Assembly (NCBI GenBank): GCA_023150805.1
Contig: JAKLKF010000030.1
Span: 1 to 63,493 of the forward strand
From: Myxococcota bacterium
GTDB taxonomy: Bacteria > Myxococcota_A > UBA796 > UBA2385
Length of the DNA: 63,493 bases
Direction: 5' to 3'
A program made the position numbers and the translations under genes. The notes beneath the pieces were generated by a model, which saw only the letters and a program-made list of their open reading frames with translations, did not search any database and was not told where the DNA came from. The first letter of the stretch is position 1. The number at the start of each line of letters is the position of its first letter. Positions 4,490-21,898 of the stretch are shown in pieces.

Positions 4490-4675
4490 TCAGCCCGTGA
4501 CACACGCGATGAAGTGCCGTCCCTCGGGGTCTACCGACAGCCGGGCCTTCACGCGGCACCGGAGGCGGTTGTGGCCGAGCGAGGGGCCCCCGGACAGGGC
4601 CACCCGCGTCTCGCACGTGGTCAGGTCGCTGGACGAGCCCGCAGGGCGGGCTGCCGTCGAGACCCCTTCGGGGAT
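4490..4675 (-). pseudogene. Possible 3' remnant of a coding sequence
   Basis: On the minus strand a frame with strong G/C third positions encodes a two-cysteine segment (DLTTCETRVALSGG...LRCRVKARLSVDPEGRHFIACV) and ends in TGA. No start codon precedes it before it runs into the symporter gene in another frame, so it looks like the tail of a lost gene. Within the same gap a 7-bp hairpin (AGCCCGC-AGG-GCGGGCT, 4636-4652) could terminate the symporter transcript. Weak evidence; coincidental open frames are common at this GC. Confidence 0.25.
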
Positions 4676-4731
4676 CCCTCTCGCCCCCGCGTGGATACCC
4701 CGACGCCGCGGCCCCTTCCCGCTGGCCCCCC

Positions 4732-6105
4732 CTACGGGTTCTCGTCCAGCGGCGCCTGCTCGCGGGCCTGGCGGCGGGCCGCCGCCTCCTGGGCGCCGAG
4801 CAGGTCGCCTTCGCGCGCGGCGACCACGGTGGCCACCATCGCGTCGCCCGTCACATTGGTGACCGTGCGACACATGTCGAGCAGGCGGTCCACGCCGAAG
4901 ATGATGGCGATGCCGCCCTTCATCACCTCGTCGCCCATCCCGACCGACTGCAGGACGATCACCAGCATCACCAGGCCGACGCCCGGCACGCCAGCGGTGC
5001 CGATGCTGGCCAGGGTCGCGGTCAGCACGATGGTGAGCTGGTCGCCCAGGTCCAGGGGGATGCCGTAGAGCTGGGCGATGAACAGCGCAGCGACGCCCTG
5101 GTAGAGCGCGGTCCCGTCCATGTTCACGGTGGCGCCCAGGGGGACGACGAAGCTGGTCACCTCCTCGCTCACGCCCAGCCGCTCCTCGACGCACTCCATC
5201 GTCACGGGCAGGGTCGCGTTGCTGCTCGACGAGCTGAAGGCCAGGAGCTGGGCGGGCAGCATCGCCTCGAAGAAGCGGCTGGGGCCCATGCCCGCGAACA
5301 GTCGCAGCAGCAGCGGGTAGACGCCCAGCGTCACGATCAACAGCCCACCGACCACGGTCAGGCTGTAGACCGCCAGGGCGCTGAGCACCTCCACCCCCAT
5401 GGTCGCCATCACCTTGGCGATGAGGCAGAAGACGGCGAAGGGCGCGACGCGCATCACGGCGTCGACCAGCTTGAGCACCGCCTCGTTGAGCCCCTCGGCC
5501 GCGGCGATGACCGGCCGCGCCTTGTCCGCCGGCACCAGGGTCAAGGCCACCCCGAAGGCCAGCGCGGCGAAGACCACCTGGAGCATCGAGGCGTTCGCCA
5601 GCGCCTGGAAGGGGTTGGCGGGCACCACGTCGAGCAGGGTCGCCCAGGCGTCGGGGGCGGCGGCGGCCTGGACCTTGTCGGCCACGCTGGCGGCGGCCTG
5701 GCCGGCCAGTCGGTCGCGCAGCTCGGCGGACAGCCAGGTGCCGGGCCGGGTGACGTTGGCGACCAGCAGGCCGATGCTGATCGCCAGCGCCGTGGTCACC
5801 AGGTAGATGCCGACCGTCCGCGTGCCGATGCGCGACAGCTTCTGCACGTCGTTGAGGCTGCTGGCGCCGACCACCAGGCTGAACAGCACGATGGGCACGG
5901 CGATGAAGCGCAGCCCGCGCAGGAACAGGTCGCCGACGAAGGCATTCATCTTGACCACGAAGGAGAAGACGGCGGCGAGGACCTCGCTGTCGGCGGCGGC
6001 GGCGGACAGCGGCGCGTGCAGCAGGTTGAGCAGCACGCCGACGACCAGCCCGGCGAGCATGCCGAGCAGGATCTGCCAGTGCAGGGCGAGGCGAGGGCGG
6101 GCCAT
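4732..6105 (-). CDS. Dicarboxylate/amino acid:cation symporter (DAACS family)
   Basis: A 457-residue inner-membrane permease with about eight hydrophobic segments plus two re-entrant loops. Family signatures are present: the Ser-rich loop SSSSSN (about 291-296), GATVNMDGT (324-332), the GTAGVPG loop and the transmembrane-8 motif GVDRLLDMCRTVTN (404-417), whose Asp and Asn coordinate substrate and cation. It should import C4-dicarboxylates or acidic amino acids with Na+ or H+; the substrate cannot be chosen from sequence. The ATG used has GGGAG upstream and gives the usual family length; a longer in-frame start would add an Arg/Pro-rich tail. It is transcribed divergently from the operon at 6346. 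Confidence 0.93.
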   Translation of the reverse strand: MARPRLALHWQILLGMLAGLVVGVLLNLLHAPLSAAAADSEVLAAVFSFVVKMNAFVGDLFLRGLRFIAVPIVLFSLVVGASSLNDVQKLSRIGTRTVGIYLVTTALAISIGLLVANVTRPGTWLSAELRDRLAGQAAASVADKVQAAAAPDAWATLLDVVPANPFQALANASMLQVVFAALAFGVALTLVPADKARPVIAAAEGLNEAVLKLVDAVMRVAPFAVFCLIAKVMATMGVEVLSALAVYSLTVVGGLLIVTLGVYPLLLRLFAGMGPSRFFEAMLPAQLLAFSSSSSNATLPVTMECVEERLGVSEEVTSFVVPLGATVNMDGTALYQGVAALFIAQLYGIPLDLGDQLTIVLTATLASIGTAGVPGVGLVMLVIVLQSVGMGDEVMKGGIAIIFGVDRLLDMCRTVTNVTGDAMVATVVAAREGDLLGAQEAAARRQAREQAPLDENP

Positions 6106-6759: not shown

Positions 6760-9342
6760 ATGGCACGGCGAGACCTCTCTGCTACCACCGCCCAGCCCTC
6801 CACCCAGGCGGTGCTGCTTAGGGTGGCGCAGGAGCGCGCGGACCACCAGCGGGAGCTGCGCCACCTGTCTCGCCGCGCCCGCGCCCTCAACGCCCGCCAG
6901 GCGGGGCGGGACACCCCGCTCCGCCTGCTCCCCACCTCGCAGGAGGTGCCGGTCCCACTGGATGCGGCCCTGATTGCGGCCGTGGACCGCCGGCACCCCT
7001 TGGACCTTCCCTGGGCGCGCATCGACCGGGCGGTGGCCAGCCGGATGCTGGCCTTCCCCGGTCGGCCCGACACCGAGCCGCTGGAGGGCAGCGACCTGGT
7101 GTCGTCCGTGGGCTTCCAGAATGGTTTGGGGCTGGGCGGCCTGAAGGCCTACGCGTTGGAGGACGACCCAGCCAGCACCCGCTACGGCTCGGGTCCCGAC
7201 CAGCTCGCGGATGTCGGCGCGCTGGGGGTGGACGTGGTCCGGCAGTTCGGGGTGCGCGACCTGCTGTGGGGAATGCTGACCAACGCCCCGAAGGAGCCGG
7301 ATGAGGCTACCGGCGCGGCGGGGGGCGCCCTCCAGTTCGTGGTGCCGACGGCGGTGCCGACGGAGGATGTAGAGCTCCAGGAGCGGCTTCTGGAGGGGCG
7401 GAGGTACGACTTCGGGGACGCAGACACCAGCGGCGAGGCGACCAACGTCGAGCGGCTGGGGGAGCAGTTCGCCCAGGCATTCAAGCAGGGGCTGCGCCTG
7501 CGCTTCACCTTCCTCACCCTGGGAGGGGGCAGCGAGACGCTGCTCGACATGGCCGGAGACCACGACAACGCCGCGACGACATTTGAGCGATTCGATGGGT
7601 GGGACCACCTGTACCGGAACGTGGGGGCCTGGCCCGGCTACAACCCGCTCGGTGCCAGCGGCGACGACGAGGCGCGGGACGCCCTCGGACAGCTCCCCCG
7701 GAGCGCCCTGCGGATGTACTGGTCGCCCGACCACCTCGACCCATTGGTGCTGAGCGAGGCGCGCACCCTTCCCAGCGTCTGGGCTGCCGCCAGCTATGCC
7801 CTGGCCAGCCTGGACTTCCGCTTCTCCTTCCAGCGGGCCGGCGTGCGCGCCATCGCCTACCGCTGCGCCGGCCTGCTGGTCGAAGCCGCGGAGCATGCGC
7901 GCTCCCTGTTGGAGGAGGAGGGCCACTCCGACGCGAGCAGCTTCGGCCTGTGGGAGGTCCTGGAGGGCATCGAGCTGTTCAACGAGTGTGAGCTGCGCAC
8001 AATCATCAAGGGTGAGGTGGACGCCGTCCAGGTGGACCTTGTCGAGGACACGGCGGATATGTGGGCCCGGGGTGCCGTGATGGCGGCCCTGGGCTTCTGG
8101 TGGGGCTTCCGGGAGCGGGGGCTGCTCCCGGAGGGACGGGTCCCGCTGTTCCTGCCGGGCCTCAGCAGCTACACCGTAGGTGACGTCGCGGCGACCTCGG
8201 TCGGGCCATGGGGCGGCGCCGTATACCGCTTCCCGACAACGGGTGGGGGCAACCGGAGCTGGACCTGGAGGGCGCTCTTCCTGGACCGCCTGTGCCGACG
8301 GATCGCCGCCACCTGGGCCTTCCTGCGCGGGGAACTGTACGCGGAGCCCTATGCGCCGGAGGGCTTCGGCTGGGTCCCGAGCCTGGGCCAGGTCTTTCGG
8401 GGCATCGACCTGCACTGGTACCACTTCACGGTTGCAGGCTTGGATCTCGGCCCCCTGCACGCAGGCTGGTTGATGTCCGAGGTCGCCCAGGCATCGGGCC
8501 TGCTGGACGCGCACGGCCTGGGCAGCGAGGTGACCGTCTTCGAGTCCTGCGCCAGCGAGGGCCCAGAGGACTTCCAAGTCTTCCCCGAGGGCACCACCGC
8601 CGGAGCAGCGACCGACGCGCAGCGGGAGGCCTTCCAGGCCAGCGACGCCTGGCGCCGGCTGCTGTCGGCGAAGTCGGCGGGCGCTGGAAAGGTCTCCTGG
8701 CATCCCTGGGCCGAGAACCCCTCCGATTCCAATCAATGGGCGGACTGCGGCCTGCGGGACCCTACCATGGTAGTGTCCGGCAAGGCGGAATACACGGCCG
8801 CGCGCACGGTCTACTTCGCCTATCACCGGGCGGGGCTGCTGTTGCGTGACTCCGAGTCGGTGGGCCTGGTCCTGCCAAGCGGCCTGCCCGCCCGGGACAG
8901 CCTGTCCCTTCGCCTGGAGGTCCCCAACGAGGCGTTCAAGGACGCCCCCCTGCTGGTCTTCGAGATCCGCACCCTGGGCATCTCGCTGCTAGCGGGGCGC
9001 CCGCTTCGCGAGCTTCGGACGGCGGCCTATGTCTTTCTGGTGGACCCGGTCGCCGAGGAGACCGAGAGCTTCGAGGTAGTGATCCGCCCGACCTCCGGCT
9101 CCTTGGACGGTGCCCTCTGGATGGAGCCCTACCCCGCGGATCCCGCGGCATGGTTGATTCCGCCGAAGTCGACGGGCAACCTTCCCCGCTACGAGCTGGA
9201 CGCGTCGATCACGCTGGTGGAGAGCGGATACACCGGCGACGTCGAGCGCATCGTCACCCTGCGACGCGGCGACCCGCCCCTGGTCCTGCTCAGCCCCTGC
9301 ATCCTGGGGATCGAGCGGCGGACGACCGGAGGGGCGTCATGA
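6760..9342 (+). CDS. Large hypothetical protein, second gene of the operon
   Basis: An 860-residue protein without signal peptide or membrane helix. The N-terminal 60 residues are Arg-rich and helical (RVAQERADHQRELRHLSRRARAL). The central part is aromatic-rich (WGMLTNAPKEPDEA, RMYWSPDHLD, FWWGFRERGLLPEG). A stretch with DLHWYHFTVAGLDLGPLHAGW and EVTVFESCASEG (about 550-600) hints at a TIM-barrel hydrolase but carries no certain catalytic signature. The last 170 residues look beta-rich, like a carbohydrate-binding or jelly-roll domain. GCAGGAG is the ribosome-binding site. It overlaps the next gene by ATGA. I do not recognise the family; a secreted-by-other-means or surface-display role is conjecture. 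Confidence 0.7.
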   Translation: MARRDLSATTAQPSTQAVLLRVAQERADHQRELRHLSRRARALNARQAGRDTPLRLLPTSQEVPVPLDAALIAAVDRRHPLDLPWARIDRAVASRMLAFPGRPDTEPLEGSDLVSSVGFQNGLGLGGLKAYALEDDPASTRYGSGPDQLADVGALGVDVVRQFGVRDLLWGMLTNAPKEPDEATGAAGGALQFVVPTAVPTEDVELQERLLEGRRYDFGDADTSGEATNVERLGEQFAQAFKQGLRLRFTFLTLGGGSETLLDMAGDHDNAATTFERFDGWDHLYRNVGAWPGYNPLGASGDDEARDALGQLPRSALRMYWSPDHLDPLVLSEARTLPSVWAAASYALASLDFRFSFQRAGVRAIAYRCAGLLVEAAEHARSLLEEEGHSDASSFGLWEVLEGIELFNECELRTIIKGEVDAVQVDLVEDTADMWARGAVMAALGFWWGFRERGLLPEGRVPLFLPGLSSYTVGDVAATSVGPWGGAVYRFPTTGGGNRSWTWRALFLDRLCRRIAATWAFLRGELYAEPYAPEGFGWVPSLGQVFRGIDLHWYHFTVAGLDLGPLHAGWLMSEVAQASGLLDAHGLGSEVTVFESCASEGPEDFQVFPEGTTAGAATDAQREAFQASDAWRRLLSAKSAGAGKVSWHPWAENPSDSNQWADCGLRDPTMVVSGKAEYTAARTVYFAYHRAGLLLRDSESVGLVLPSGLPARDSLSLRLEVPNEAFKDAPLLVFEIRTLGISLLAGRPLRELRTAAYVFLVDPVAEETESFEVVIRPTSGSLDGALWMEPYPADPAAWLIPPKSTGNLPRYELDASITLVESGYTGDVERIVTLRRGDPPLVLLSPCILGIERRTTGGAS

Positions 9343-10913
9343 TCCCGTGGCTGCTTCTGGCCTGTGCGCCCTACGAGCCGTCGGGTGGGGGAGAGGGGAA
9401 CCCGAAGTCCTGCGCCCATGTCCCCGGGGCGACCTGGACTGAGATCGGTTCGAGGGTGTTCGGTGATGCCGCGATCTACCCCTGTCGCACCTTGCGCTGG
9501 GACCAACCCGTCATGGTGTCCGCTGGTGAGGCGGGCGAGCCCGGCAGGGTGCTGATCGGCTCCGAGACGACATTCAAGATCGAGGGAGACCTGGAACGCG
9601 ACGAGGAGACCTGGCCGGGCGTGATTTCGTCCAACGGCGATCCAAATACAGAAGGCGAGCCGTACGAGTTCCGTTCCATCGTGTACCGGCGCGCACTGGA
9701 GCCGGGCATGCCCCGGCTCAACCTCCTGGAGGACATGGAGGGGGAGGACATCGAGGTGCCCTTGTTTGCTGACCCGGACAGCGAACGGGACGCGTGGGTG
9801 GGCTCGCCGGGAACCTACGCCGACTTTGATGGCGATGGAATCGAGGACCTTCAACTTGTGGGCCATCCGGACTACTCCCTGTCGTGGTTTCCTGGCACTC
9901 CCGAAGGGCTGTCGACCGAGCCGGCAGCCACGACCGTTCCACTCTCCGTCCTTCCCGCGGGGGATCTGACGGGCGATGGCGTGGTCGATCTGGCTCGCCT
10001 GGTACAGGAGACGGTCGTGGAGGATGGGGAAGAGACAGAGGTCGTGCTCCTCGCCGTCCAGTCCATGCCCGTCGTGGGCCGGATCGAGGATGCCGCGTGG
10101 GATGTGCGTCTGGGCACGGACCTCTACCAGCGGGAGACCAACGGATACGGGGCCCGCGGCGGGTTCAACATCTTCGCCTACGGTGGCTTCGACCACAACG
10201 GCGACGGCATCGCCGACGTGGCCGTCGGCAACCGTTTCCCTTATGAACTGGAGTACCCCGCTCGGGGCAGCATCAACGTCTTCGACGGGCCCATCCTGGA
10301 GAGCCGCACGGGGGAGGATGTCGACGCGCTGCTCTCGCGCTGGTCCGCCAGTTGCGAGGACGCGAAGGGATCCAACAAGTGCGACGGCGTCGGCACCTAT
10401 GTGCAGTCCGCCGGGGATGTGGACGCCGATGGGTTTGAAGACCTGCTGATCGGATCACAGTCCAGCCACACCATGGGGCCCCAGATCATGAACGGCGCCC
10501 TGTACCTGGTGCCTGGACCCCTGGAAGGAAATATGGACATCGACCTGGTAGCGGTGGCCCGCCTGGACGGCGGCTACGATGGTGCCATGTTCCCCGACTT
10601 CATGCAGGCCAAGGGAGACCTGAACGGCGACGGTCGCTCCGACCTACTTGTGGCGCAGGCTGTGGATCGTCAGGAAGGTGGAATGTACCTTCACTATGGA
10701 CCTGTCGAGGGCGTCAAGCACTGGATGGAGGGCACCTACGTCTGCGACCGATGGTACGGCTACGGTGAACTCTCCTTCGACCAGGACATCGACCACGACG
10801 GCATTCACGATCTGGTCTACAACCCGGGAGACCCGTTGTACAGCCTCCAGGTCTGGTTCTCGTCCATCTCCACAGAGTTCCCCCGCGCCGACTCCGACTG
10901 CATGATGGACTGA
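9339..10913 (+). CDS. FG-GAP (integrin-like) repeat lipoprotein
   Basis: A 524-residue exported protein starting at the ATG that overlaps the previous stop. The very short signal MIPWLLLAC places the lipobox cysteine at residue 9. The body has repeated calcium-loop motifs typical of FG-GAP beta-propeller repeats: ADFDGDGIEDL, GDLTGDGVVDLA, DHNGDGIADVAV, GDVDADGFEDLL, GDLNGDGRSDLL and DIDHDGIHDL, each followed by a hydrophobic strand. It should form a seven-bladed extracytoplasmic propeller, perhaps for adhesion. It is the last gene of the three-gene operon, implying an envelope location for the system. Confidence 0.88.
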   Translation: MIPWLLLACAPYEPSGGGEGNPKSCAHVPGATWTEIGSRVFGDAAIYPCRTLRWDQPVMVSAGEAGEPGRVLIGSETTFKIEGDLERDEETWPGVISSNGDPNTEGEPYEFRSIVYRRALEPGMPRLNLLEDMEGEDIEVPLFADPDSERDAWVGSPGTYADFDGDGIEDLQLVGHPDYSLSWFPGTPEGLSTEPAATTVPLSVLPAGDLTGDGVVDLARLVQETVVEDGEETEVVLLAVQSMPVVGRIEDAAWDVRLGTDLYQRETNGYGARGGFNIFAYGGFDHNGDGIADVAVGNRFPYELEYPARGSINVFDGPILESRTGEDVDALLSRWSASCEDAKGSNKCDGVGTYVQSAGDVDADGFEDLLIGSQSSHTMGPQIMNGALYLVPGPLEGNMDIDLVAVARLDGGYDGAMFPDFMQAKGDLNGDGRSDLLVAQAVDRQEGGMYLHYGPVEGVKHWMEGTYVCDRWYGYGELSFDQDIDHDGIHDLVYNPGDPLYSLQVWFSSISTEFPRADSDCMMD

Positions 10914-12891: not shown

Positions 12892-14072
12892 ACCGGCCGG
12901 TGGCCGCCGATGAGCGCGCCCGTCAGGGCCGGGATGGCGTCCAGCGAGGCCTGGATGGCGGCGGACACGACGTTGCGCAGGGGCTCGACCGGCTGGTCCT
13001 CGCGCGTCTGCAGGGTGACCTGCACCAGCGCCGGCTCGCGGACGGGCGCGCCGATGCGGCTGACCAGGGCCACCTCGGCCGCGGCCACCTCGGGCAGGGC
13101 CTGGCAGATGGCGCGGGCGGCCTGCTCGGCGACCAGGTTGTAGAGCTTGCCCACGTGGGTGACCGGGTTCTTGCCGGCGGCGGCCTCCAGGCTCATCGCC
13201 CGCATCGGCGTGATCAGGCCGTTGATCCGGTTGCCCCGACCCACCTGCCCGTCGTCGCCCGCCTCGGCCGAAGTGCCGGTCACCGTCAGGTACAGCCGGC
13301 CCTGCTCGGGCGCGTCGGCGGCGTTGACCACCACCCGGGCGTGGGGGCCGGCGACCTGCTGGACCAGCGCCGTCGCGTCGGCGCGGGCCTGCCGCCAGGC
13401 CGCCAGGTCGGGCAGGAAGCGGTCCACCATCGCCACCGCCACCGTCAAGTCGAGCTGCTCGCCCACCCGCGTGCCCATCACCTTCACGTCCTCGCCCAGC
13501 GCCGGCAGCCGCGCCTTGGTCTCGGGGGCGTTCAGCCGCCGCTCCACCTCCCACACCACGGCCTCCAGGTGGCTGCGCGGCCAGCTCCCCACGCCGTAGG
13601 AGGTGTCGTTGCAGCGGGCCTGCGCCGGGTCGGCGAACAGCTCCGCCAGCTCCACCGAGCCCGGCCGCACCAGGACGTGCACCCGCAGGTCGGTCGCCGG
13701 GTCGACGAAGCGCAGGTGGGCGCGGACCCACTGCTCGACGACCTCGCGGGCCAGGCCCTGCACGTCGATGCGCTCGCCCCCGACCTGCACGGTCGCGCGG
13801 CCGGCCAGGTACAGCTCCATGGGCGCCAGCAGCCTGCCGCCGCCCAGGGCCGGGCGCGCCTCGCCGCCGAAGAGCAGCGCCTTGTCGACGTTGTGGTGCA
13901 GCACCCGGCCGAAGCGGTGCAGGTACTCCCGGGACAGGCGGGCGCTCAGCGCCTCGGCCAGGCAGTCGGTGATGGTGTCGGGGTGGCCCACCCCCTTGCG
14001 CTCGACGATCTCGACGCCGCGGAGCGCATCGCCCTGCGGGCCCACGGCCCGCCGCCCCAGGTGCAGCTTCAT
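12885..14072 (-). CDS. mat: Archaeal-type S-adenosylmethionine synthetase
   Basis: A 395-residue methionine adenosyltransferase of the archaeal type, unrelated in length and motif order to bacterial MetK. Diagnostic segments include [17 protein letters not shown] (about 20-36), [55 protein letters not shown] and the SRIGAPV end. It should make S-adenosylmethionine from methionine and ATP. The ATG has GGGAGAAGGC upstream. It is divergent from groEL and appears to belong to the stress island; a standard metK presumably exists elsewhere in the genome. The archaeal-type enzyme occurs in scattered bacteria, probably by transfer. Confidence 0.9.
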
Positions 14073-14211
14073 GCCTTCTCCCTCGGCTCGGTCGAGCTTC
14101 ACGCTAGGCACCGCCCGGCCGACGTGACCGCGACGCTTTGCCCCGGGGACGCCCTGGATCGCGTGCGCATCCCGAGCACGAGGGACGCAGGCTGTCCCCG
14201 CGGAGGTGCCC

Positions 14212-15822
<1,611 letters not shown>

Positions 15823-15833
15823 GGGCGGGGGCC

Positions 15834-16142
15834 GTGACTCTCTCCCCTGCCGCCGCCGCCGCCCTGCGCGCCGTCCTGGCCCACCACCCGGGGCGCGCCG
15901 TGCGCGTCCGCCGGCAGGGCTTCAGCTGAGGCTCGCCCGACCTGGGCCTGGCGCTGGACGCGCCCACCGAGCACGACGTGATCTTCGAGGAGCAGGGGGT
16001 GCGCATCGTCCTGAGCGCGCCCGAGGCCGCCGCCATCGGCGACTTCGCCATCGAGTACTGGGGCCCGCCCGGCCTGGGCTTCCTCCAGGCCCGGGCCCTG
16101 GGGATCCCCGCCTGTGGGCCGGCGCCCGCCTCAGGCGGGTGA
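15834..16142 (+). CDS. HesB/IscA-like protein with in-frame UGA, probable selenoprotein
   Basis: Read from the GTG after a G-rich ribosome-binding site, the frame gives 31 residues, a TGA (15927-15929, codon 32), then 70 more sense codons to a second TGA. Both sides are coding: upstream RAVRVRRQGFS, downstream GSPDLGLALDAPTEHDVIFEEQGVRIVL and a YWGPPGLGFL end. This is the IscA/HesB fold order, with UGA where a metal-binding Cys of the GxC/S-G loop is expected. The HesB-like selenoprotein family (TIGR01911) is known to have selenocysteine at that place. A hairpin follows the UGA at suitable spacing. It lies directly behind groEL. The alternative is a pseudogene by a Cys-to-stop mutation; SelB and tRNA-Sec must be found elsewhere to decide. 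Confidence 0.72.
15943..15966 (+). promoter_or_regulatory. Putative bacterial SECIS hairpin
   Basis: About 20 bases after the in-frame UGA, GGCGC (15950-15954) pairs with GCGCC (15960-15964) around the loop TGGAC, which has a G in its second position. The loop begins 25 bases after the UGA, inside the 16-37 base range described for bacterial SECIS elements. An alternative outer pairing GGGC/GCCC is also possible. Folded by eye only; hairpins are common at this GC. Confidence 0.45.
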
Positions 16143-16604
16143 CAGGGCCCGTCGCAGCCCCACCTGGGCCCGTGGCTCCAGCTCCTGGTCGGCCCAGCGG
16201 TAGATGCCGCGGTCCTCGGTGCGGGCGTGGGCGCGCAGCGCCTCCAGGAAGGCCAGCAGGGGCTCGGCCCGGACGGTGTGCAGCTCGACGGCCAGGTCCA
16301 GCTCCTCCAGCCAGGCCCGCAGCGCGTCGTGCTCTTCGCGCAGGGCCTGGACCGCCTCGGGGTGTGCGGCCGCCAGGCCCGGCAGCAGCCAGGTCTCCTC
16401 CAGCTCCAGGTGCGCGCGGAGCGCGTGGTCGAAGGCGCGCCAGACCTCGACCAGGTTGGCCCGCTCCAGGCCGGCGTCGACGGCGTCGACGACCTCGGCG
16501 AGGTGCTCGTCCAGGGCGCGGTGGGCGTCCTCGAGCAGGGCTTGGAGCGAAGGCTCATCGGGGCCATGAGCGCGGCGGGCGTGGGGCAGCGGCGGCAGGT
16601 GCAC
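16131..16604 (-). CDS. Hemerythrin HHE-domain protein
   Basis: A 157-residue four-helix-bundle protein with the HHE metal-ligand pattern: H in LEDAHRALDEHL, HxxxE in RAHLELEE, H in REEHDALRAW and HxxxE in HARTEDRGIY. It should bind a non-haem di-iron centre and O2, NO or peroxide, or serve in iron storage or stress sensing. The GTG start is chosen because GGAGG lies six bases upstream. Its end overlaps the end of the convergent selenoprotein candidate by 12 bases. Its place in the stress island suggests a role in oxygen or nitrosative stress, perhaps linked to Fe-S repair. Confidence 0.85.
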   Translation of the reverse strand: MHLPPLPHARRAHGPDEPSLQALLEDAHRALDEHLAEVVDAVDAGLERANLVEVWRAFDHALRAHLELEETWLLPGLAAAHPEAVQALREEHDALRAWLEELDLAVELHTVRAEPLLAFLEALRAHARTEDRGIYRWADQELEPRAQVGLRRALSPA

Positions 16605-16690
16605 GGGGCCTCCAGGGTCGCCCCCTGCTCCTATGCACGGGGCGTCGCGTGGGCAGGCGGGACCGCATAGGCGGGGGGCGAGAGGTGCCC

Positions 16691-17803
16691 ATGCAGGTGC
16701 TGGAGTCCATCCGTCGCAGCGCGAACGCGAGCTGGTACGCGGTGCGCGGCGACTACGAAGGACAGGTCGAACGCTACGTCGTGAGCACGCCCGGCAGCCG
16801 CGACATCTGCAACCGCCCCGAGCTGCTGGGCGTGGCCTTCAACCTGGCGCTGGAAGGCTGCGTCACGTCGTCGCTGGTCACGGCCCCCTTCCGCCCGCTG
16901 CTGGAGCAGCACCCCGAGGAGCGGGTCTGCGCGGTCAGCTTCCTGCGGGGCGGGCTGAACTTCGAGCTGCGGCGGGCCTTGCACAGCGCCTACGGCTTCA
17001 ACCGCCACTCCTCGGCCTTCATGAGCAGCCAGCGCTACCGCGAGGACGGTCGCTGGCACGTGAAGGAGGACATGTACCGCAAGCTCGACATCCCGCGGGA
17101 CGCCATCCTGGTGATGGGCGACGTGGTCGCCACCGGGGTGACCCTGGAGAACGGCCTGCGGGTGGTCATCGACCACATCATCTCGATCGGCAGCTCGGTG
17201 CGGGCGCTGGTCTTCTACACGATCGGCTGCCACAAGGCCGAGAAGGCGCTCTCCGCCATCGACCAGCGCATGCGGCAGGCCTTCCCCGGCTACGAGCGCA
17301 CCATCCTGGTCTACCTGGAGGGCAAGTTCCGCCTGGTCGACAGCAAGTCCGAGCTGCGCATCGGCATCCCCGGCACCGACCTCATCCGCCGCGGCGCCCT
17401 GGTCGCGCCCGAGCTGGAGGCCAGCCAGTACGACCGCCCGCAGTACCTGCTGGAGCGCTGCGCCATCTACGACGCCGGCTCGCGGGCCTTCGACATCCCC
17501 CACTACGCCCGCGACGTCATCGACTACTGGGAGCAGGTGCTGGCCCTGGCCCAGGGGGGCTGGACCCTGGGCGAGGCGCTGCTGGAGCGCTGGCCCGAGG
17601 GGGGGAGCCTGGACCGCGAGGCCTTCATGGCCGCCCGCGCCGGCGCCTGGGAGGGCGTGGACCAGGCCTTCCTCGACGACCTCTACCACCGGCAGCGCGC
17701 CTTCTTCCGCGGCGAGCTGGCCGCCAGCGAGCGCGCCCTCGCCGCCGTCGCCCGGGAGCGCATCGCCCTGCTCTCCCAGGTCGGCGGGCTGGGGGCCGCA
17801 TGA
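16691..17803 (+). CDS. Phosphoribosyltransferase-like protein
   Basis: A 370-residue soluble protein with a type I phosphoribosyltransferase PRPP loop, ILVMGDVVATGVTLENGL (about 140-157), preceded by a hood-like segment VCAVSFLRGGLNFELRRAL. The C-terminal 120 residues (LLERCAIYDAGSR..., HRQRAFFRGELAASERAL) form a helical extension not found in simple PRTases. GAGAGGTG is the ribosome-binding site. The stop overlaps an 11-codon mini-ORF that leads into the nucleoside phosphorylase. Substrate unknown; the pairing suggests it acts on a base or nucleotide released in stress. A regulatory, non-enzymatic PRTase is also possible. Confidence 0.7.
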   Translation: MQVLESIRRSANASWYAVRGDYEGQVERYVVSTPGSRDICNRPELLGVAFNLALEGCVTSSLVTAPFRPLLEQHPEERVCAVSFLRGGLNFELRRALHSAYGFNRHSSAFMSSQRYREDGRWHVKEDMYRKLDIPRDAILVMGDVVATGVTLENGLRVVIDHIISIGSSVRALVFYTIGCHKAEKALSAIDQRMRQAFPGYERTILVYLEGKFRLVDSKSELRIGIPGTDLIRRGALVAPELEASQYDRPQYLLERCAIYDAGSRAFDIPHYARDVIDYWEQVLALAQGGWTLGEALLERWPEGGSLDREAFMAARAGAWEGVDQAFLDDLYHRQRAFFRGELAASERALAAVARERIALLSQVGGLGAA

Positions 17804-17831: not shown

Positions 17832-18665
17832 ATGAGCGCCCCCGTGCTGGCCCACCACCTGGCCGTCGGGCCCGAGGTCATCGCGGGCAACGGCGGGCTG
17901 GGACGCGTCTTCCTGCTGCCGGGCTCGCCCGGCCGCGCCGAGCGCATCGCCGGGCACTTCGTCGACCACGTCCGCCACGACAACCCCCGGCGCCACGACG
18001 TGCACGTCGGCGCCGTCCAGGTCGGGGGCGCCCGGGTCGACGTCGGCACCGTCGCGACGGGCATGGGCTGCCCCAGCCTGGGCATCATCGTCAGCGAGCT
18101 GTTGGCGCTGGGCGCCCGCTGCCTGCTGCGCGTGGGCACGGCCGGCACCCTGCAGCCCGACCAGGTCCCCGTCGGCGCCCTGGTGATCGCGACCGGCGCG
18201 GTCCGGGACGAAGGCACCAGCGACGCCCTCTGCCCGCGGGACGTGCCCGCCGTCGCCCACCCCGACGCCGTCGCCGCCCTCTCCCGCGCCGCGACCGCGC
18301 TCGGCCTGGCGGAGACGACCTACCGCGGCCTGGTCCACGCCAAGGACACCTTCTACGGCCGCGAGGTCGCCAGCGGCCCCCTGGCCGCCCAGAGCGCCGC
18401 CTACATGGCCATGCTGGAGGCGGCTGGCGTGCTCGCCACCGAGATGGAGAGCAGCCACCTGTTCATGCTGGGCCAGGTCCACGGCGCCGACCGCCGGCCC
18501 CTGTCCGCCCGGGGCCCCGACCCGCAGGTGGTCATCGCCGGCACCGTCCTGGCCGTGATCGGCTCGACCCGGGAGTGGGGCGACGCGGCGCTGGCCGCCC
18601 GGACCGAGGCACAGGCCATCGAGGTGGCCCTGCGCGCCGCCGTGGAGCTGGTCCACCCCGGGTAG
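17832..18665 (+). CDS. Nucleoside phosphorylase (PNP/UDP family 1, uridine phosphorylase-like)
   Basis: A 277-residue PNP/UDP-family phosphorylase. Matching parts are FLLPGSPGRAERIAGHF (phosphate loop, about 27-43), VATGMGCPSLGIIVSELLALGAR, RVGTAGTLQPDQV, the base-binding VHAKDTFYGRE and the ribose-binding ATEMESSHLF. It should cleave nucleosides with phosphate to base and ribose-1-phosphate; the pattern is closest to uridine phosphorylase. It starts at an ATG overlapping the stop of a mini-ORF that itself overlaps the PRTase-like gene, so the two enzymes are translationally linked and may act in sequence in salvage. Confidence 0.88.
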   Translation: MSAPVLAHHLAVGPEVIAGNGGLGRVFLLPGSPGRAERIAGHFVDHVRHDNPRRHDVHVGAVQVGGARVDVGTVATGMGCPSLGIIVSELLALGARCLLRVGTAGTLQPDQVPVGALVIATGAVRDEGTSDALCPRDVPAVAHPDAVAALSRAATALGLAETTYRGLVHAKDTFYGREVASGPLAAQSAAYMAMLEAAGVLATEMESSHLFMLGQVHGADRRPLSARGPDPQVVIAGTVLAVIGSTREWGDAALAARTEAQAIEVALRAAVELVHPG

Positions 18666-21125: not shown

Positions 21126-21349
21126 GACGCACCTCGGCATCATCTTGGCCGCCGCGGGCCCGCTTGCCCAGGGGCGTCCGGGTCGCACCGCGGTCGTCCC
21201 CCCGGGACCGCGTGCTTTGCCCCACCTGCCCGGGGCAGGAGGCCCAGGTGCGCCCGGCGGAGAGGCTCGCCGTCGCACGGATCGCGGGCACACGACTTGC
21301 AGCACCCCCTCGCGCGGGCCAGCCGGCCCAGGTCCCTCCGGAGGGTCCC

Positions 21350-21898
21350 ATGCAGCGTCCTCCCACCATCACCTGGCGCAACGTCGACCACGACCCCGAG
21401 ACCGAGGCCGACGTGCGCCGCCACATCGCCCAGCTCGACCGGGTCCACCCCCGCCTGACCGGCGTGGACGTCATGGTCGAGCGTCCCCACCACAGCCAGG
21501 GACAGGGCAACCTGTTCCGGGTGCGGATCGACGTGCATGTGCCCGGCGACGAGCTGGTCGTCAACCGCGACCCGCGCGAGCACCACGCACGGGAGGACCT
21601 GCACGTCGCGATCCGCGACGCCTTCAAGGCCGTGCGCCGCCAGCTCCGCGAGCGGGGCCGCGTGATGCGAGGCGAGGTGAAGGACCACGAGGAGATGGCG
21701 GTGGGCACCGTCCGTACGCTGTCCGACGAGGGCGGCGGCTACGGCTTCCTGGTCACTCCCGAGGGGCGCGAGGTGTATTTCCACCACAACGCCGTCAAGA
21801 ACGCCACCTGGGAGGACGTCGAGGTCGGCGCCGTCGTGCGCTTCCAGGAGGAGCTGGGCCAGCAGGGCGCCCAGGCCGCCGTCGTCCTGATCGACTGA
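21350..21898 (+). CDS. Ribosome hibernation factor (HPF/RaiA) fused to a cold-shock domain
   Basis: A 182-residue fusion. Residues 1 to about 105 match the HPF/RaiA beta-alpha fold (ADVRRHIAQLDRVHPRLTGVDVMVERP..., FRVRIDVHVPGDELVVNRD..., HEDLHVAIRDAFKAVRRQL-like helix). Residues about 118-182 are a cold-shock domain (MAVGTVRTLSDEGGGYGFL, EVYFHHNAV, VEVGAVVRFQEE) with the RNP-like aromatic motifs. It should bind the 30S subunit and RNA and protect or inactivate ribosomes under stress. GGAGG lies six bases before the ATG. The usual long-HPF dimerisation tail is replaced by the cold-shock domain. Confidence 0.92.
   Translation: MQRPPTITWRNVDHDPETEADVRRHIAQLDRVHPRLTGVDVMVERPHHSQGQGNLFRVRIDVHVPGDELVVNRDPREHHAREDLHVAIRDAFKAVRRQLRERGRVMRGEVKDHEEMAVGTVRTLSDEGGGYGFLVTPEGREVYFHHNAVKNATWEDVEVGAVVRFQEELGQQGAQAAVVLID

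Follow-up and report, generated by a model that had tools for sequence, protein, structure and literature searches.

The window, that is, the whole 63,493-nucleotide stretch of Myxococcota DNA analysed here, contains a gene that is very likely a working, though divergent, selenoprotein of the HesB/IscA type. Its in-frame UGA is shared with relatives and is most likely read as selenocysteine (Sec). With modest confidence, the product is proposed to be a 102-residue selenoprotein of HesB/IscA fold in which Sec32, inserted by way of SelB and a downstream hairpin, would be paired with Cys94 as a selenol-thiol redox pair. The features on which the argument turns are as follows.

14206..15822, + strand: groEL (TIGR02348 707.6 bits, cut-off 582.1), with its stop codon 11 nt upstream of the Sec gene.
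15834..16142, + strand: the very likely Sec-containing HesB/IscA-like gene, 102 codons, GTG start, stop codon TGA at 16140-16142.
15927..15929, + strand: in-frame TGA (codon 32), predicted to encode selenocysteine where IscA has its first metal-binding Cys.
15950..15964, + strand: bacterial SECIS-like hairpin GGCGC-UGGAC-GCGCC with a G in the loop, identified by covariation and by a covariance model.
16113..16115, + strand: Cys94 codon, the predicted partner of Sec32, in a column that is Cys in at least 90% of a 54-row alignment.
16131..16604, - strand: hemerythrin HHE-domain gene (PF01814 48.9 bits, cut-off 25.3; TIGR02481 below its own cut-off).

The initial annotation had described an open frame interrupted at a single codon, and this is what the window contains: from 15834 to 16142 the frame runs for 102 codons with the TGA at codon 32 as its sole break, and that codon aligns with the first metal-binding Cys of IscA, in line with the claim that it lies at a metal-binding Cys site. 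The codon-usage score of the frame is +14.1 before the UGA and +62.4 after it, against 5.2 and -3.6 for the best other frame. The GTG start is aligned with the ATG of three relatives (L026, L027 and L028), and the motif at Sec reads U-G-S-P.

By its gene content, the organism is predicted to be able to read UGA as Sec. A check of the genome for selA, selB, selC and selD had been proposed, and in the draft assembly (7.77 Mb, 398 contigs, 90.7% complete, 4.6% contamination) all are present: SelA (480.6 bits), SelB with its winged-helix domains (295.7 bits), a tRNA-Sec (69.6 bits; called by ARAGORN as tRNA-SeC, anticodon tca) and two selD genes, L019:1501-2427 (G000:C177, - strand) and L018 (G000:C344). 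One of the two selD genes has an in-frame TGA in LARTCGU and is a predicted Sec-containing selenophosphate synthetase. The tRNA-Sec, selA, selB and selD genes each lie on a different contig. Since selA is matched in 250 of the 377 genomes of the phylum, its presence is unremarkable for the group. It is matched in all 19 phylum genomes that have the TGA gene, in two of them weakly (G314, E 2.4e-18; G244, E 1.3e-13); the chance of 19/19, 3e-4, applies under an independence of genomes that does not hold. The G008 gene (L040, GNGCSGPRLGFALESP) is a Cys form of a similar motif, and that genome has no selA match.

Conservation of the UGA in relatives, which had also been put forward as a check, was examined in the phylum and across GTDB. 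A protein search of the 377 phylum genomes gave matches in 28 genomes and 29 stretches, 19 of which, the window gene included, have one TGA, its position being the same codon throughout; a profile search of these genomes, in which at most 13 candidates per genome were scored, added one gene (G229). Within the order, the TGA form occurs in 11 of 63 genomes, and it was not found in two genomes of the same genus (87% and 78% complete). A scan of GTDB contigs with the single window protein found no relative. A scan with an alignment of the region downstream of the UGA yielded 106 confirmed loci, the best 80 of which come from Deltaproteobacteria, Spirochaetes, Firmicutes and others and include 5 duplicates. 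The resulting family set of 100 rows minus the 5 duplicates holds 95 distinct genes, the window gene included, and in this set (GTDB part, the best 80 of 106) the site of codon 32 is TGA in 86 genes and a Cys codon in nine (L119, L129, L174, L177, L181, L186, L187, L188 and L194). One genome, G100, has a second Sec HesB-like gene, L195 (G100:C87:4300-5200, match 4589-4888, - strand), which lies outside the counts; it has U-G-W-P, a tail with RACGAPV (a C-terminal Cys) and a stem GGCCC/GGGCC paired at 5/5, so one genome can hold two such genes.

The hairpin had been reported from the window alone as a stem-loop with a G in its loop 25 bases downstream; it begins 20 nt after the UGA and its loop lies about 25 nt downstream, in agreement with that description. 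A hairpin that closely follows the UGA and carries a G in its small apical loop is what the available part of PMC1088965 gives for the bacterial SECIS, and the window gene has these features. RNA folding had been suggested as a test of the element: the hairpin stood, but its stability did not distinguish it, the single-sequence folding energy being typical of DNA this rich in GC (z -1.0 to +0.6, four stretches). Energy alone therefore does not reveal the hairpin; covariation does. In a 19-sequence alignment, pairing holds in 95/95 cells of the five pairs, double changes occur in two pairs and 13 cells, and neither the pairing nor the number of double-change cells is reached by any of 500 shuffles; the covariation score (0.463 vs 0.195) is likewise reached by 0/500. 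Versions of the hairpin slid along the alignment are 30-47% paired. Two of the five covariation measures fall within the shuffles, namely pairs with change on both sides (386/500) and further pair types (484/500). A covariance model built from 23 relatives with the window left out, which scores sequence as well as pairing, places 15927-15983 at the top of the window (57.2 bits, E 1.6e-13; next 11.8) and also at the top of the genome (next 25.6 bits, with 150 of 18794 candidates scored). That second match in the genome (C116) lies at a TGA that seems to be a normal terminal stop, followed by nothing that resembles the family, and was taken as chance. Rfam gave nothing over the window at gathering scores.

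The same hairpin is close to universal among the Sec forms. With the best 80 of 106 GTDB loci in the set, all five pairs are present in 83 of the 86 Sec forms and four in the other 3, and the hairpin starts at +20 nt after the UGA in 84 and at +23 nt in 2; of the nine Cys forms in that set, none has five pairs, one has four and five have three. Most Cys forms retain two to four pairs. They also retain LGLALD in 8/9 and differ mostly just after it, under the 3' arm of the hairpin. Because the Cys forms are few and mutually related, and because the residues after LGLALD differ, the contrast between Sec and Cys forms is not purely one of RNA; it supports an RNA constraint while falling short of proof alone. 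Conversions of Sec to Cys in the HesB-like family, one with a remnant SECIS-like structure, are described in the available part of PMC1794560.

These results bear on two explanations in which no Sec is made. It is very improbable that the gene is a pseudogene or encodes a short peptide ending at the UGA: low scores with the curated family models and the two genomes of the same genus in which the TGA form was not found would fit such a gene, but the sequence past the UGA is conserved, has the coding bias of the frame and holds a covarying hairpin, two close-relative fragments are 66-71% identical downstream of the UGA, and the genes of the Sec machinery are present. Still more improbable is that the UGA is read as another amino acid through a changed code or plain readthrough, for which the open frame speaks and nothing beyond it; the window gene and many relatives themselves end in TGA, a tRNA-Sec with anticodon tca is present, and the hairpin is whole in 0/9 Cys forms. 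Absence of selB or of tRNA-Sec, or decay in relatives, had been named as grounds for abandoning the selenoprotein reading; all three were looked for and none was found.

Assignment of the protein to TIGR01911, as had been suggested, did not survive: the window protein reaches 15.5 bits where the curated cut-off is 66.35, and it belongs instead to a divergent related group. It scores 30.3 bits with NF038090 (IscA_HesB_Se; cut-off 85) and 15.4 bits with PF01521 (cut-off 26.3), and a TIGR01911 search of its own genome gave nothing at E 0.001. Its identity to 51 canonical HesB-like selenoproteins is 19-38%. A HesB/IscA fold is nevertheless predicted. The AlphaFold2 model, made with 54 sequences, has a mean pLDDT of 86.5, with 76 in the block around Sec and about 44-54 in residues 91-102; the best Foldseek matches of the model are IscA, SufA and DsrR (E 3.4e-5 to 1.6e-4), and by sequence the family profile matches AQ_1857, HI1723, IscA (yfhF) and SufA. 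In a tree of 37 rows with trait columns unmasked, the window protein is one of eight members of a clade, all from its order (99/95 support; root not established).

A-type Fe-S carriers have three cysteine ligands, with a C-terminal CxC. The window protein would resemble IscA, SufA and ErpA (PF01521) in its predicted fold and in the position of Sec; unlike them, it lacks the C-terminal CxC, has one Cys besides Sec and falls below the PF01521 cut-off. With the HesB-like selenoproteins (TIGR01911/NF038090) it shares Sec in the place of the first IscA Cys, a following LGLALDxP motif, a hairpin at +20 and, as in many members, a single C-terminal Cys. It differs from them in lying below both curated cut-offs, in belonging to a separate clade (99/95), in a partner Cys whose position varies within that clade, and in its U-G-S-P, where the available part of PMC13188914 gives the HesB-like motif as UxGP. 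The own genome also encodes an ordinary IscA-like protein with CGCG (L023). Redox selenoproteins with UxxC and UxC motifs have folds that differ from HesB/IscA. Such proteins, thioredoxin-like and others, as the available text of PMC9312934 presents them, are like L026, L027, L028 and L031 in having a thiol at U+2 or U+3; the window protein's own Cys is distant and C-terminal.

The position of this second thiol follows an either-or rule in the members examined. Among 84 complete Sec proteins (L173 and L183, cut by contig ends, were left out; GTDB part, the best 80 of 106), a Cys stands in one of two places in every case: 80 have it at the C terminus, where it is the very last residue in 53, and four have it at U+2 or U+3, while none has both and none has neither. 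The four near-Cys proteins, two of them from one genus, are L026 and L027 (U-H-G-C), L028 (U-G-C) and L031 (U-A-C), and they have no Cys from U+46 onward. The zones compared, U+1..U+4 and U+46 onward, were picked after the alignment had been viewed, and the table is unchanged when the near zone is set anywhere from 3 to 6 residues. The peptide pattern of the GTDB scan prescribed G at U+1, G or C at U+2 and P at U+3, so that U-A-C-P and U-x-x-C forms were undetectable there; taken by themselves, the 20 genes from the phylum searches, which are the less biased part of the set, divide into 16 C-terminal and 4 near-Cys. A scan of viral contigs contained no U-x-C-P form.

Within the window clade the partner Cys lies in the tail in the window protein, L029, L030 and L032, at U-x-C in L028 and L031, and at U-x-x-C in L026 and L027. 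On the best tree, with trait columns masked, the switch takes three changes, but the AU test does not reject a near-Cys form that arose once (p 0.128). A GGGSC shortly before the end of the close fragments P0004/P0005 contradicts the idea of a window clade without any C-terminal Cys. The region past the terminal stops of the near-Cys genes was also inspected: no Cys follows that of L028 in the stretch read, the Cys codons past those of L027 and L031 lie in sequence unlike the family and were not taken as protein, and the terminal stop of L026 is TAG. Counted from U+46 onward (best 80 of 106 GTDB loci), 38/84 complete Sec proteins, the window protein included, have one Cys and 42/84 have two to four; the nine Cys forms of that set have three to six. 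Sec may stand in for a fuller Cys site.

In the mechanism proposed here, the UGA of codon 32 would be translated as selenocysteine by SelB and the downstream hairpin, and the three-cysteine cluster site of the A-type fold would have been cut down to one Sec and one Cys, the latter on a tail of predicted flexibility (residues 91-102, pLDDT about 44-54). Sec32 would react with an oxidant, with sulfur or metalloid species, or with a target disulfide; C94 would resolve it as a selenenylsulfide, to be reduced in turn by a cellular thiol system. In relatives with a Cys at U+2 or U+3, that neighbouring Cys would take the role of C94. As far as sequences can tell, the either-or placement of the partner Cys is more easily reconciled with a selenol-thiol redox pair than with an Fe-S carrier of three Cys. 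A bolder proposal, advanced tentatively and judged to fall somewhat short of probable, is that in one Myxococcota order the A-type carrier fold has become that of a small Sec-thiol oxidoreductase, whose resolving Cys moved from the tail to beside the selenium and, among the members examined, is never present in both places or in neither.

The initial annotation had regarded the product as a Sec-containing Fe-S or metal-binding protein. Of this the Sec holds, but the metal site does not follow, as Sec32 and C94 are all that is left of the three A-type Cys. A serious competitor, if a slightly doubtful one, is that the protein is a slimmed-down A-type carrier with Sec32 and C94 as ligands, probably from both subunits of a dimer, of an Fe-S cluster or a different metal. 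Fold and sequence match IscA and SufA structures, including IscA with a [2Fe-2S] cluster (1x0g), two subunits could supply two Sec and two Cys to a cluster, and both the 42/84 Sec proteins in which two to four Cys stand at or beyond U+46 and the Cys forms with three to six would suit a metal site. The single Cys from U+46 in 38/84, the window protein among them, the four proteins with only a Cys at U+2 or U+3, and the CGCG protein L023 in the same genome argue against such ligands and leave the selenol-thiol pair as the preferred reading.

The surroundings of the gene give a hint of stress, in one genome only: besides groEL and the HHE hemerythrin gene, which is convergent with the Sec gene and overlaps its last 12 bases, the window holds a LonB-like protease and an S30AE/cold-shock fusion. 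In the fusion, at 21164-21898 (+), an S30AE domain of the ribosome hibernation type and a cold-shock domain are joined in one protein. The place behind groEL that had been remarked on is real in the window, with a gap of 11 nt, but there is no sign of its conservation in the relatives examined. Around seven clade relatives and L033, where open reading frames were judged by eye and several contigs are short, neither groEL nor any common neighbour was recognised beside the Sec gene; in a DNA search of 10 family genomes the groEL matches stop near the end of groEL, and in G127 and G287, which belong to the same family and have the gene, the Sec gene and groEL are on separate contigs. A stress role based on an operon is accordingly unsupported, as the neighbours were not found beside the gene in the relatives examined. 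The window groEL is one of three copies: two more groEL-like stretches in the genome (G000:C385:8971-9527 and G000:C341:15341-15897) are 69% and 68% identical, respectively, to the end part of the window groEL.

Other genes of the window may be recorded here. A methionine adenosyltransferase of the PF01941 / PRK04439 type, a mostly archaeal type, has its domain span at 12903-14018 (-; 451.5 bits), and an FG-GAP repeat protein lies at 9150-10913 (+). An open reading frame of 554 aa at 16139-17803 (+) has no Pfam or NCBIfam match at E 1e-5, and part of it resembles a phosphoribosyltransferase by eye; it is adjoined by a gene of the phosphorylase superfamily (17832-18665), whose closest match, below the cut-off, is uridine phosphorylase.

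HesB-like selenoproteins have been in selenoproteome surveys since at least 2005-2006, as the available parts of PMC1088965 and PMC1794560 attest, and PMC9312934, in its available part, lists HesB-like under TIGR01911 among experimentally verified selenoprotein families and gives no motif there. For Methanococcus maripaludis, the available part of PMC11097638 reports a HesB-like selenoprotein found by mutagenesis and 75Se labelling, calls its function unclear and cites an unpublished observation that nitrogen fixation is unimpaired in a Methanococcus disruption mutant. No description of a near-U Cys in HesB-like selenoproteins or in the window clade was found in titles and abstract openings, mostly outside subscription journals. 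The gene is thus of a known kind, a bacterial selenoprotein of known fold, in a divergent variant, and the either-or regularity of its partner Cys was not found in print. As the curated models miss this divergent group, annotation loses such genes. That the sole partner thiol has been relocated in nature points directly to a need for one selenium and one sulfur to meet; the relocation bears on the function of HesB-like selenoproteins and makes the redox and metal-ligand ideas testable.
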